Origin: Spirogloea muscicola
Taxonomy: Eukaryota; Streptophyta; Zygnematophyceae; Spirogloeales; Spirogloeaceae
DNA: 30,019 nt
Direction: 5' to 3'
NCBI GenBank assembly: GCA_009602725.1
Contig: WELB01000344.1
Span: 31,521-61,539 of the forward strand
In this document: positions 16,347-24,480 of the stretch, piece after piece
How the letters are laid out: each line of letters begins with the position of its first letter
Numbering within the stretch: the stretch's first letter is position 1
Position numbers and translations under genes: made by a program
Notes under the pieces: model-generated
What the model was told of the DNA's origin: nothing
Database searches by the model: none
Seen by the model: only the letters and a program-made list of their open reading frames with translations

Positions 16347-17576
16347 ATGCTCCAGGCTAGCCTGCCTGTCAGTCGCGGCGGTCTGGGCTGCCGCCTAGTC
16401 GCCCGCGACTGCGAGGCCGCCTACCTGGGCAGCTGGGCCCAGGTCGCCGCACGCATCAGCCGGCGGTTCCAAGCTCACGGCATCCGCACCATGGAGCGGG
16501 TGGTAGCTGAAGTGGAGAGCGGCTCGTTGCCCTTCCAGGCGGCTCTCCGCGCTGCCCGCGACGCGCTCCTGGCGGCCCACCCCGACATGTCGAAGCAGGT
16601 CGTCCCGTTCATCCAGCTTGCGCACACCCCCGACCTGCGGGCCCAGGCCCGCTACACTGCGCTTGTGGACAAAGCGGCCTACGACCAGGTGGTGGAGCTC
16701 CTTCCGCCGCACGACATCCGAGGGCGCGCCCGACTCCTCTCAGCCTCCTCCCCCGGGGCGGCGGCGTGGGTATCCGCGCTCCCCATCTACGCGGCTCTCA
16801 CGATGCCCGACACAGTCTACAGGACGGCGGTCCACCGGCTTCTGGGCCTCCACCCCCCCTGCCTCATTGGAGTCAGGCAATGCGAGTGCGGTGCCCGCCA
16901 TGCCGACCCTGCGGAGCTGGCGGCCCACATGCTCCGTTGTGCCCACGGCAACGAGAGGACCGGATCCCATGACCTTCTTAGGGACGGCATGCAGGGTGTC
17001 TTCATCGAGGCAGGCTACAAGGTGGCCGTGGAGCACACCTCGATAATGCCCCTCGTGCGCGGCGCTGATGGTCAACTCCACACTCGACGCGCAGACCTAG
17101 TCGCCATCCCGCCCGGCGGCGGTCCGCATATCATCGCGGATGTGGTGACCGCCGACTGTGTCGACTCTGCCAACCCCTCCAAGTCGGCGACGACCGCTGG
17201 GCATGCGGTCGCTTTGGCGGCCCGGGGCAAGGAGCGGAAGTATGCCGATGACCCCCCAGGTGATGAGTTCGCGGCGCTTGCCATAGACGTCCACGGGGCT
17301 TATGGCAGCGGCTGGCTGGATCTCCTCCAGCGGCTTGCCCGGCAGGCCATGGAGCGGCGGCCGGGTCCGCCAGGGGGGCTGCCCGGCTTCAACGCGGCCG
17401 GCTCCCTGGCCCAGGTTATCCGGATGCGGCTCTCCGTGTCCCTTCAACGCTCCCTCGCTCATGCCGTCCACTCGCGCGCGGGCCGTGCTCTTGTTGCTGC
17501 TTCCGGGTCTCGTCCGGCTGCATCGTTTCCAGCTTCGAGCTACTCTGACCTGATGTTGCTCACCCGCGGGTTTTGA
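16347..17576 (+). CDS. Solo zinc-finger/RLE endonuclease ORF, C-terminal part of a retrotransposon protein
   Basis: This is the longest open copy, 409 residues without frameshift. It opens with LPVSRGGLGCR, the block that follows the reverse transcriptase in many non-LTR elements. A finger CxCGARHADPAELAAHMLRC with a trailing RTGSHD lies at about residues 173-205. The restriction-enzyme-like core follows: RRADLVAI and HIIADVVTADC (about 245-270), then KERKYADD (about 292-299). The C-terminal domain has AIDVHGAYGSGWLDLL, GSLAQVIRMRLSVSLQR, RAGRALVAASGS and SYSDLMLLTRGF. Such proteins nick DNA for target-primed reverse transcription. The reverse transcriptase itself is missing, so this is a 5'-truncated insertion. 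The ATG at 16347 may be fortuitous. Confidence 0.75.
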   Translation: MLQASLPVSRGGLGCRLVARDCEAAYLGSWAQVAARISRRFQAHGIRTMERVVAEVESGSLPFQAALRAARDALLAAHPDMSKQVVPFIQLAHTPDLRAQARYTALVDKAAYDQVVELLPPHDIRGRARLLSASSPGAAAWVSALPIYAALTMPDTVYRTAVHRLLGLHPPCLIGVRQCECGARHADPAELAAHMLRCAHGNERTGSHDLLRDGMQGVFIEAGYKVAVEHTSIMPLVRGADGQLHTRRADLVAIPPGGGPHIIADVVTADCVDSANPSKSATTAGHAVALAARGKERKYADDPPGDEFAALAIDVHGAYGSGWLDLLQRLARQAMERRPGPPGGLPGFNAAGSLAQVIRMRLSVSLQRSLAHAVHSRAGRALVAASGSRPAASFPASSYSDLMLLTRGF

Positions 17577-18169: not shown

Positions 18170-18400
18170 ACTGTCTAGCTGGAGCGCAGCCACGAAAGCC
18201 GGAGGCCTGACTTAAAGCGCGCCCTGCACGTTGATGAAGAGCCAATGCTTGCGAGCGCTGCAAAGTAAGTGAGAGCCGCATTCTATAGTATGCAACTAAG
18301 GCCTGCGGAATGCTGGAGTGGCCCAAGCTGCCCCAAGGAATGGACAAGGTCTGAAGGAGCCGGCAGCATTGAAGCCCGGCACCTCCGTGGCTGACCCGCC
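18170..18400 (-). pseudogene. Minus-strand remnant of a diverged subfamily
   Basis: The minus strand reads SLGHSSIPQALVAY, RMRLSLTLQRSQALALHQ and RAGRALSQASGF. About 145 bp are nearly identical in direct orientation to 21165-21310. The upstream end continues into a proline/glycine-rich linker like those of the other copies. Confidence 0.65.
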
Positions 18401-18606: not shown

Positions 18607-19237
18607 GGGCTGGGAGCGGACAGGCACGCACGACCTGCTGCGAATGGCCATGTTTGGCATCTTCGTCGAGGCCGGCTATGCGGTGGCGCTCGAGCACTCC
18701 AGCGTCATGCCTCCGACCGCTGGGGCGGATGGCCGCATCCACACCCGGCGCGCCGACCTCGTCGCCAGCGCGCTCGGCGGGGGGCCTCGGCTCATCGCAG
18801 ACGTCGTCACCACTGACAGCTTTGCGTCCAGCAGCGCAAAACGCTCGTCGGAGGAGGCGGGCTACGCAGTCGGCCAAGCGGCGGGCGAGAAGGAACGGAA
18901 GTACTCGGACCACTTGGTGGGCGACGAGTTCGTTCCACTGGCAGTGGACGTGCATGGAGCCTTCGGCTCCAAATGGCTTGACTTGCTCCACCGCCTGGCG
19001 CGGCGTGCAGCGGCCCGCCGCCTCGGGCAGCAGGGCGAGCAGCCCGGCTTCAACGTAGCCGGGTCCCTCGCTCAGGTTTTCCGTATGCGTTTGGCCGTCT
19101 CGATGCAGCGGTCCCTCGCCTTCGCGGTTCACTTGCGCGCAGGCCGAGCTTTGGTGGCGGCCTCCGGCTTCCGTCAGGGCGACGTCTTTCCGCCAGCTAG
19201 CTTCTCGGACCTGCAGCTCCTGTCTAGAGGTTACTGA
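18607..19237 (+). pseudogene. 5'-truncated RLE copy, open to its stop
   Basis: The frame starts within the finger (RTGTHDLLRMAMFG). It includes the endonuclease core (RRADLVASALGGG, LIADVVTTDSF, KERKYSDH) and the full C-terminal domain (AVDVHGAFGSKWLDLLHRLA, GSLAQVFRMR, RAGRALVAASGF, SFSDLQLLSRGY stop). The frame is undamaged over about 210 codons, so the insertion is probably young. The 3' UTR ends in a type-2 tail at about 19296-19357. Confidence 0.75.
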
Positions 19238-19295
19238 GCGTTCCCTGGCTGATGTCTTAGTCCTAGTCGTTCGCACTCAGGCTCCCTCAGACTTT

Positions 19296-19357
19296 GTCCA
19301 TCCTTTTGGGCTGGCCTTTCCCAGCCACCAGTCAATCTGGCCGCGCTTCCTATGTGG
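19296..19357 (+). mobile_element. Reference type-2 3' tail in place at the end of a copy
   Basis: The tail reads GTCCATCC, TTTTGGGCTGG, CCTTT, CCCAGCCACC, then CAGTCAATCTGGCCGCGCTT. GGCTGG and CCAGCC pair as a stem. It is the natural 3' terminus of the copy at 18607-19237 and gives the reference for the solo type-2 tails. Confidence 0.65.
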
Positions 19358-22089: not shown

Positions 22090-22245
22090 GGATGATGGCA
22101 ACTGTGAGAGGAAAGAGAAGAAGCTCTTCAAAGCGACATCATAAGGACCACCCCCGGGGCGACCACTTCTTCCCATGCGCCATGGACATATGCGGCCGCT
22201 ACGGAATGAAGTGGACATCTCCTCCTCCATCGCCTGTGTAACGTT
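22090..22245 (+). pseudogene. Plus-strand remnant of the diverged subfamily
   Basis: The plus strand reads ERKEKKLFKATS, then a stop, then HPRGDHFFPCAMDICGRYGMK. This aligns with EWHYQDHPQGDH and AMDIYRGYGVK of the copy at 21097-21570. Only the segment linking the endonuclease core to the C-terminal domain is left. Confidence 0.5.
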
Positions 22246-22925
22246 CCCCGGTTTTTGAGCGCCTTACAGTGTCGTCAACGCGTACCTGATATTCATTTGG
22301 GCCGTTTGTCGTTTGACGTTACGAGCTGCCCCGGCACTGGTGCCGTAGTCGTTCCGTCCGGAGCTCGTCCGTGTGGCCTGGCATGCTCCGTCATACTCAG
22401 TCAGACATACTCAGCAGCATGTGTGGGCCCGGACGCCCACGGCGGCATGCCGCCATGCCCGGCGGCCATGCTCGGCGCTATGGCGCCTGCTGGAAACAGC
22501 TCATGGTTCCCTCGTCAGGCACGCTCCTCGCGGGCGAGCCTTGGGGCGACCCCCGTACACCCTGGAGGGAGGGTGGCACGGAGAAGCACTGGCTTTTGCA
22601 CGAGCAGAGAGAGACCCGACCTCGGGCCGAGACTCAGTGACGCTCAGAGAGAGGCGCAGCCCTGCGGCTGCCTGCTACTGTGGATTTGCTGCCCCGCGCG
22701 GCTGTTTGCCGGCTCATCTTGAGGACCTTGGCGGCGTCCTGCGGGAGGCAAGGCTGCAGCATGTGCCCAAGGGTGGAGCTGCTGCTTAGCCGCAGCACCA
22801 CAGGGCAAGTCTTCCGCTATGTCGGAGTGCTTCCTCGTGGCGGGTGGCTGTCTCTAAACGCCAATCACTCAATTCAATAAGGAAACATTCGGCTGTAACC
22901 TGCTTGTTAGATCCAAACGTGACAG
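22246..22925. other. No recognisable gene
   Basis: Two overlapping plus-strand frames (22255-22722 and 22373-22789) are rich in Arg, Ala, Gly and Cys. They show no motif and no splice structure that I can defend. They may be degenerate retroelement or host intergenic DNA. Confidence 0.45.
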
Positions 22926-22930
22926 CCTGG

Positions 22931-23213
22931 CACAGCATGTCAATGCCTGTCGACGTAGTCGGGGCGGGTAGCTTAGGGCATTCTAGTGTCCCACAAGCCA
23001 TCGTTGCCTGCTCTAGGATGCGGCTATCATTGAGTCTGCAGCGCTCCCAGCGCTTTCACAGCCACCAGTCAATTTGGAAGCGCTGTTCTCCCAGGCACTC
23101 GCGATCCACCAGCGTGCTGGGTGTGCATTAGGCCAGGCTAATGGCTTCCGTGGTGGTGGTCTGGCTCCCCAGCTTAGCTTCTCAGATATGCATGTGCTCA
23201 CTCGCGGATAATT
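22931..23213 (+). pseudogene. Plus-strand copy of the diverged subfamily, interrupted by a solo tail
   Basis: The plus strand reads SLGHSSVPQAIVAC and RMRLSLSLQRSQ. A 37-bp insert follows, then, in another frame, ALAIHQRAGCALGQANGF, LSFSDMHVLTRG and a stop. Removing the insert and one direct repeat restores LQRSQALAIHQRAG, the form seen in the sibling at 18170-18400. Confidence 0.7.
23044..23094 (+). mobile_element. 37-bp solo type-2 tail with 7-bp target-site duplication
   Basis: The insert 23051-23087 contains CAGCCACCAGTCAATTTGG and GCGCTGTT, the 3' half of the type-2 tail. It is flanked by CTCCCAG at 23044-23050 and 23088-23094. The sibling copy shows the empty site. It is the shortest insertion in the window. 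Confidence 0.75.
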
Positions 23214-23215
23214 AA

Positions 23216-23588
23216 TGTCCCCCTTGCCAGCTCATTACCTTGTTACCAGGACACTTGTAAGGCTAGAATTGGCCTCCCTTTCAATTCCATGCACACTGCG
23301 CGCCTTCTCGCTTTCAGAAGGGGACGATGGCTGTGAAATGCCAGCTCATACAAATGGATGGTTCTTAGTGAACGGCATCGCTCGTCCTGAGAGCCCACCG
23401 CAGCATGCCTTCTGTCTCTGAGGATCTGCACAATCACTGCCCATGAACTTCAATTTCTGGTGCTCTGTTGTCCTTCCGTTAGCCAAGGAATCATGGCGAG
23501 GCAACAAAATGCAGCGACTGCTGTAGGAGGAGCGTGAGGAAGGAAGCGCGGCCAGGAGCGTGAACGGTCTTGGAGAATCTCTTAGTCA
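23216..23588. other. No recognisable gene; degenerate tail-like segment
   Basis: A GGACGATGGCTGTGAAATGC segment near 23323 resembles the 3' UTR hairpin of neighbouring copies. No other gene or element can be supported. Confidence 0.4.
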
Positions 23589-24480
23589 ATGATGTCCCGC
23601 CACCCAGCAGGACAAACAAGGGTCTGCTTCAAGGGTCTGCTTCACCGCCTCCTCGGCCTCCACCCACCCTGCCTCAGTGGAGTACAGCAGTGTGAGTGCG
23701 GCGAGCGCAGCTCAGACGCGCCATCGTTGGCAGCTCGCATGCTCAGGAGCGCACGGGGCGGGGAGCGGACAGGAACCCACGACCTGCTGCGGAACGCAAT
23801 GTTTGGCATCGTTGTCGAGGCCGGTTACACGGTGGCGCTCGAGAATACCAGCATCATGCCTCCACACCCGGCGCGCCGATCTTGTCGCCAGCGCGCTCGG
23901 CGGGGGGCCTCGGCTCATCGCCGACGTTGTCAGGACTGACTGTTTTGATTCCAGGAGCGCCAAACGCTCGTCGGAGGAGGCGGGCTACGCAGTCTGCCGA
24001 GCGGCGGGCGCAAAGGAACGTAAATATTGGGATCACCCGGTGGGAGACGAGTTTGGCCCACTCGCCGTCGGCGCCTTTGGCACAAAACGCCTTTGGCACA
24101 AAATGGCTTGACCTGCTTCACCGCCTTGCGCGGCGAGCAGCGGCCCGCAGCCTCGGGCAGCAGGGCGAGCAGCCTGGCTTCAATGTCGCCGGGTCCCTCG
24201 CTCACGTCTTCCGGATGGGATTGGCCATCTCTTTGCAGCGGTCCCTTGCCTTCGAGGATTACTGGCGCGCAGGCCGCGCTGTGGCGGCGGCCTCTGGCTT
24301 CCGTCAGGGCGACATCTTTCCGCCTGCGAGCTATTCCGACTTGCATCTTTTGACCAGAGGTTACTAAGCGTCCCCTTGCTGATGTCTTAGTCCTTAGCAC
24401 TCCGACTCCTTCAGACCTTGTGCATTCGTTTGGGCTGGCCTCTCCCAGCCACCAGATAATGTGGCCGCGCTTTCTCTCAA
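23589..24480 (+). pseudogene. Frameshifted copy with finger, RLE core, C-terminal domain and type-2 tail
   Basis: The plus strand reads LLHRLLGLHPPCLSGV, the finger CECGERSSDAPSLAARMLR and RTGTHDLLRNAMFG. A frame change just after SIMPPH leads to TRRADLVASALGGG, LIADVVRTDCF and KERKYWDH. A small duplication around GCCTTTGGCACAAAA (about 24074-24103) breaks the frame again before KWLDLLHRLA. The copy ends SYSDLHLLTRGY with TAA at about 24365. The UTR ends in a type-2 tail near 24426-24475. It is closest to the copy at 18607-19237. Confidence 0.8.

Follow-up and report, generated by a model that had tools for sequence, protein, structure and literature searches.

A 37-nucleotide insertion in Spirogloea muscicola is very probably a LINE copy cut down to its 3′ tail

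The cause of 5′ truncation in long interspersed nuclear elements (LINEs) is a long-standing question. Truncated R2 copies occur in various lengths (PMC7650587), and mouse L1 copies of 100–400 bp that hold only the 3′ region have been ascribed to a premature end of reverse transcription (PMC11084082). An account of L1 that treats 5′ joining and jumping to target DNA describes short duplications as relatively frequent in 5′-truncated copies (PMC2912911). The shortest Alu insertion, in SERPINC1, consists of 6 nt of Alu and a 40-nt tail, and the same source considers poor processivity unlikely to contribute to short L1 insertions (PMC4859970). Extreme 5′ truncation and tail-sized products are already known in principle. 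Here we describe a 37-nt insertion in a stretch of 30,019 nt (the window) of contig WELB01000344.1 from Spirogloea muscicola. It is very probably a LINE insertion cut to little beyond the 3′ end of its tail, made by target-primed reverse transcription.

Like 5′-truncated L1 and R2 copies, this insert and its relatives have variable 5′ ends and short target-site duplications; unlike them, some are only 19–45 nt long, and the tail ends in pyrimidines, not poly(A). The product is almost tail-only, as is the SERPINC1 Alu. That Alu accompanied a 1.4-kb deletion with no duplication listed for it in PMC4859970, whereas several inserts here have duplications and the class recurs. In a limited and partial literature search, tail-only insertions of 20–45 nt were not found described, the nearest case being that of PMC11084082; nor was the variant seen here, a set of inserts reaching down to about 20 nt on a tail other than poly(A).

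The insertion and its uninterrupted sites

The 37 nt at 23051–23087 sit between two copies of CTCCCAG (Table 1) within a copy of a LINE family, here called family C, which in the window encodes the end of the LINE protein. Thirty-five of them equal the end of a LINE tail that we call type 2; the first two, CG, mismatch the tail (..GGCCTCTCACAG..) and are unexplained filler. The CT at 23088–23089 is possibly tail as well as target, because GTTCT ends the tail in many other copies, and the length of the duplication is therefore 5–7 bp. The original prediction had placed a 37-bp insert with a perfect 7-bp duplication at 23044–23094; its coordinates and sequence stand, with the length refined in this way. 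Its description of the insert as the 3′ half of the type-2 tail and nothing else holds for the 35 nt and fails for the CG.

When the flanks in the window are joined at one CTCCCAG they give ...RMRLSLSLQRSQALAIHQRAGCALGQANGFRGGG..., the joined sequence being LQRSQALAIHQRAG. The sibling copy on the minus strand at 18170–18400 reads LQRSQALALHQRAG. Removal of the insert had been expected to restore the sibling's coding form; the sibling is one residue off the form that had been given for it.

The genome searched comprised 153 Mb in 471 contigs. Twenty family-C loci were fetched and aligned at the site, so that the empty sites described here are paralogous ones within the same genome. The site is uninterrupted, with the target present once, in 16 of the 20 (L005–L017, L019, L021 and L022). 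The target is an exact CTCCCAG in 14 of these; L006 has GTCCCAG and L017 has CTCCCAA. Empty sites, which the original prediction had proposed to seek in related strains, thus exist as paralogues. In L003 and L020, family-C sequence is absent to the left of the site. L018 has a small inverted duplication at this site (GTGCCTGAGAGC..GCTCTCAGGCAC) and no tail.

The same insert was found at the site in one of the 20 loci, L023 on contig C47. This locus is about 89–93% like the window across the main blocks and is a diverged duplicate or allele of it. Both junctions and the CG filler are identical in the two; the insertion is therefore most simply older than their split. L023 has CGCTCTCACAG where the window has CTTTC, so the window form is probably a later C-to-T change. 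Two insertions in the window, 22237–22924 and 23635–24476, are missing from L023. The latter, 842 bp long, is a LINE copy with TCAAGG on either side, where L023 has a single TCAAGG. It serves as a full-size control: with its empty site, it shows that insertions by this LINE group leave duplications about as long as CTCCCAG.

Table 1. Positions in the window of the insertion, its parts and the host element
Feature	Position	Strand	Basis
Target-site duplication CTCCCAG, left copy	23044..23050	.	Window sequence, aligned host-family loci, twin L023
Filler CG, 2 bases, no tail match	23051..23052	+	Compared with 80 tails and twin L023
Type-2 LINE tail, 3′-terminal 35 nt (..CTYTCACAGCCACCAGTCAATTTGGAAGCGCTGTT)	23053..23087	+	Tail patterns and tail comparison
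Target-site duplication CTCCCAG, right copy	23088..23094	.	Window sequence, aligned loci, twin L023
Host retrotransposon (family C), upstream piece	22132..22236	+	Matches L005; L007 from 22141
Host retrotransposon (family C), C-terminal coding region and 3′ end, bearing the micro-insertion	22925..23315	+	

Tail copies across the genome

A 28-nt tail-core pattern with at most one mismatch was found at 239 places, and its reversed control at none. With the target single in the empty sites, this makes the arrangement more than a product of chance. One hundred of the 239 places were listed, 86 of them exact and 14 from the 153 with one mismatch. The tails were read at 82 of the 86 exact places, including the window (C338, C364, C371 and C388 were unread), and at all 14 of the others. 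Shorter inserts were sought with the last 19 nt of the tail alone; this pattern gave 46 places, of which 45 were read and 41 remained after removal of near-duplicates. The combined set was 121 tails read, or 115 after six with near-identical right flanks were dropped. Both patterns need the 3′ part of the tail (GCGCT). A common 3′ end was thus tested only beyond GCGCT, and the counts are silent on 3′-truncated fragments.

Sequence to the left of the tail varied widely in the first 80 tails. Over the 115 tails, the match to the consensus upstream of AATTTGG spans 1 to 86 nt, with 19 tails at a plateau of 85–86 nt, where the consensus stops matching; when tails were compared with each other, some copies were alike beyond 180 nt. 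Among the 41 tails found by the last 19 nt, the stretch of tail ahead of AATTTGG is no longer than 10 nt in five and 11–24 nt in another seven, including the window (one of these seven, L087, is probably an internal deletion). The 3′ ends agree. The bases after GCGCT are G (101/115), T (109/115) and T (95/115), then mostly C or T, and the agreement lasts about three to six bases and fades by about the tenth. Within the constraint set by GCGCT, the tails share a 3′ end and differ at their 5′ ends, as copies of a 5′-truncated LINE do. The same two ends at every copy, which the original prediction had named as the mark of a distinct DNA element, were not found in this sample from one genome.

Flanking repeats were scored by a strict rule, under which the two copies had to be identical, the first abutting the 5′ break and the second directly following the tail. 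The expectation came from mismatched flanks, each left flank being paired with the right flanks of all other tails. Of the 115 tails, 32 have a repeat of at least 6 nt (10.4 expected), 23 one of at least 7 nt (3.24 expected) and 14 one of at least 8 nt (1.16 expected). A purine is present in 18 of the 23 repeats of at least 7 nt. An earlier, looser test of 80 tails gave 17 against 3.1 at 7 nt. The excess extends to the 21 shortest tails, five of which (L028, L056, L081, L117 and L153) have a repeat of at least 7 nt, against 0.83 expected. The CTCCCAG repeat in the window, with its uninterrupted sites, and this excess in the population are evidence of target-site duplication, and the proposed search for solo tails with flanking repeats, made on this sample from one genome, supports the original prediction.

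Several of the short inserts could be described individually. L117 is a 22-nt insert between perfect 12-bp repeats, CTTGCCCGGTAG; no empty site for it was found among the best 40 of 254 candidates, which were scored. L153 is an insert of about 41 nt flanked by copies of TGTGCTG. L165 is empty at this site with one TGTGCTG, and L164, the twin of L153, is filled and has an altered right copy of the repeat; the site was spanned by sequence 44–48 nt shorter in 19 of 40 scored places. L056 is a 43-nt insert with AGGGAGC repeats, and L161 has one copy, the BLAST pieces overlapping by exactly 7 nt. Shorter repeats flank L142 (23-nt insert, 6-nt repeat), L126 (19 nt, 5-nt repeat) and L120 (28 nt, 5-nt repeat); the 4-nt repeat of L118 (21 nt) is no evidence.

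A second tail family is far commoner, with 1759 exact places for its last 21 nt, and was sampled at the first 20 places of contig C1. One of these, L171, is a 31-nt insert with TCCGGC repeats within a LINE coding region. Its uninterrupted site was found at seven distinct fetched places (nine rows, two of them repeating places in the window), six with exact TCCGGC. Another, L181, has about 27 nt adjoining another tail end and only a 5-nt repeat.

The LINE enzyme and the parent element

The C-terminal protein encoded at 16380–17573 of the window gave at least 108 matches, from the best 104 of 21,120 first-look candidates. Three fetched loci have stop-to-stop open frames of 1433, 1410 and 1130 amino acids. 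Pfam assigns a reverse transcriptase domain, RVT_1 (PF00078), to all three (E = 2.5e-13, 2e-11 and 2.5e-13; 2.5e-13 for the 1410-residue frame). In the two longer frames a pair of C..C..H..C motifs can be recognized by eye in the N-terminal part, and CxC..H..C ahead of RADLV..I(A/T)DVV in the C-terminal part, as in LINEs with a restriction-like endonuclease (R2, NeSL, HERO and Utopia). A search for a PD-(D/E)XK endonuclease C-terminal to the reverse transcriptase gave no Pfam or PDB match, the one hit being a weak match to a periplasmic protein. A structure model of the C-terminal domain was poor (predicted local distance difference test score 41.6); the order of its helices and strands fits the PD-(D/E)XK fold. 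These features point to a LINE enzyme that combines a reverse transcriptase with a possible restriction-like endonuclease.

The layout matches that of Utopia as given in PMC4640811, with a single frame of about 1400 amino acids, N-terminal C/H motifs, the reverse transcriptase, a C-terminal CCHC-like motif and RADLV..IADVV, the motifs here being identified by eye. Unlike target-specific clades, the elements described here have diverse insertion sites. The right flanks of type-2 tails differ in 115 of the 121 tails read, the other six being near-duplicates, which argues against target-sequence specificity of the R2 or Utopia kind; HERO, according to PMC4640811, includes many non-specific elements.

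A probable connection between enzyme and tail comes from L105. In this locus a type-2 tail follows, at a short distance, a homologous C-terminal coding region with the frame ..SDLHLLTRGY, and the DNA is 76% like window 19110–19347. This arrangement suggests that type-2 tails end a relative of the long open reading frames. A short interspersed nuclear element was rejected as the source: the window matched neither an Rfam family nor a tRNA, and the sequence upstream of the tail in L105 is LINE coding region. Two loci at different places, L114 and L115, have near-identical LINE open frames of about 1400 amino acids, which suggests recent activity.

Mechanism and alternatives

In the explanation that we favor, the LINE protein would nick the target, and the free target end would serve as primer for reverse transcription, which would begin in the tail at the 3′ end of the RNA. 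Synthesis on a longer RNA would end after about 35 nt. Cleavage of the second strand at a distance of a few bases, and a 5′ junction closed with two filler bases, would leave CTCCCAG duplicated. The same process elsewhere in the genome, with 5′ joining by filler or short homology, would yield inserts down to about 20 nt. The original prediction held that such synthesis can abort within about 40 nt and still be completed. Short tail inserts with duplications agree with the completion; the abort itself we infer, and a short RNA template would look alike.

Several observations weigh against this explanation. The strict rule gives the window a score of zero, its repeat being set apart from the tail match by the filler, and a repeat of at least 7 nt is missing from 92 of the 115 tails. 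Four of the 21 short tails (L026, L074, L087 and L091), although counted, resemble by eye longer tails that have changed internally and are probably not truncations. The repeats of L028 and L081 are composed of pyrimidines only and lie after the end of another tail, so they may reflect how alike two tail ends are. The fetched loci include no complete type-2 element; the long open frames carry a related tail type, and of the longest type-2 copies in the sample, four have no more than about 170–220 bp in common, at the tail. Compared with shuffled sequences, the tail fold had z = −0.78 and the half-tail fold z = −1.53, neither clearly better, so a structural stop is not supported. A terminal hairpin that halts the enzyme is accordingly not claimed, the half-tail folding as ACAGC..GCTGT no better than stated.

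The strongest alternative, which we nevertheless regard as unlikely, is that the template was a short tail-only RNA, a 3′ fragment or decay product, copied wholly in trans by the LINE enzyme. In its favor, six tails (L028, L059, L076, L081, L101 and L121) share the start TCTCA(C/A)AGCC. In five of the six, however, the sequence just before is pyrimidine-rich, which leaves their exact start ambiguous, and 5′ ends spread over 1 to 86 nt of the consensus would require many RNA ends.

Repair of a staggered break that captured a scrap of tail DNA or complementary DNA (cDNA), without target-primed synthesis, is less probable still. It would account for the filler at the left junction, and the host site truncates other family-C copies (L020, L003/L004) as if it were fragile. 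Scraps would be expected from any part of the tail, whereas those sampled mostly reach GTT past GCGCT, an argument limited by patterns that bear GCGCT and would have missed 3′-truncated scraps. Duplications of 5–12 bp also recur, which speaks against capture.

The insertion could instead have been longer and have lost its 5′ part later. L003 and L004 do have a longer tail, which begins about 19 nt before CACAGCC and is joined to family C at this very CTCCCAG. We consider this very unlikely, because the window and its twin both keep an intact left duplication, L003 and the window are not sisters in their family-C parts, and the intact pattern recurs in L117, L153 and L056. Common descent of the L003 and window insertions was likewise rejected, since a tree built from 225 nt of family C does not group the two as sisters. 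It is scarcely credible that the insert is a distinct mobile DNA micro-element whose ends are fixed. Its AGCGCT at either end does look like a terminal inverted repeat, AGCGCTTTC and GGAAGCGCT being inverted relative to each other in the window, but the AG before CGCTTTC of the insert is target found in the empty sites, other short inserts start elsewhere, and the variable 5′ ends contradict a miniature inverted-repeat transposable element or other DNA transposon with two fixed ends and terminal inverted repeats.

With a LINE insertion cut to its tail as the preferred explanation, we suggest only tentatively that the genome receives steady LINE micro-insertions of 19–45 nt, the enzyme often stopping inside or just beyond the short tail to which it is bound. 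If this is true, retrotransposons supply small insertions and deletions (indels) that repeat annotation and indel callers take for ordinary insertions, and the shortest completed target-primed product is about 20 nt. Some small insertions with short repeats, here inside the coding regions of other LINEs, may then be retrotransposition. A recognizable tail sequence exposes completed products of 20–40 nt that poly(A)-tailed LINEs conceal; counting them would give the lower end of the cDNA-length distribution and test the minimum product for second-strand completion.

Half-tails L028, L059, L076, L081 and L101 sit directly behind a tail of another type, at its 3′ end; template jumping, or a preference for inserting at tail ends, may account for this. 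As a general cause of half-tails, template jumping was rejected: an upstream tail end adjoins five of the 21 short tails, seven of the 53 middle ones and three of the 41 long ones, which is suggestive, with too few cases.

L003 and its 90%-identical duplicate L004 have a longer type-2 tail joined directly to family C at CTCCCAG, and the family-C copy in L020 is truncated at the same site. These loci would be accounted for by a truncation hotspot combined with template jumping, or by an insertion next to an old tail. L003, in which a 5′-truncated family-C copy follows directly on the 3′ end of a type-2 tail, resembles template-jump chimeras. A tail followed by a truncated copy is the order expected if the enzyme jumps to the 3′ end of a second RNA.

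Two further arrangements were noted. Past its open reading frame, L113 has two LINE tails in opposite orientation, tail to tail, which form a near-perfect palindrome. The 688-bp insertion at 22237–22924 of the window, not in L023, begins with TGTAACG, ends with GTGACA and has GCCTG on both sides; from these ends it looks like a solo long terminal repeat.
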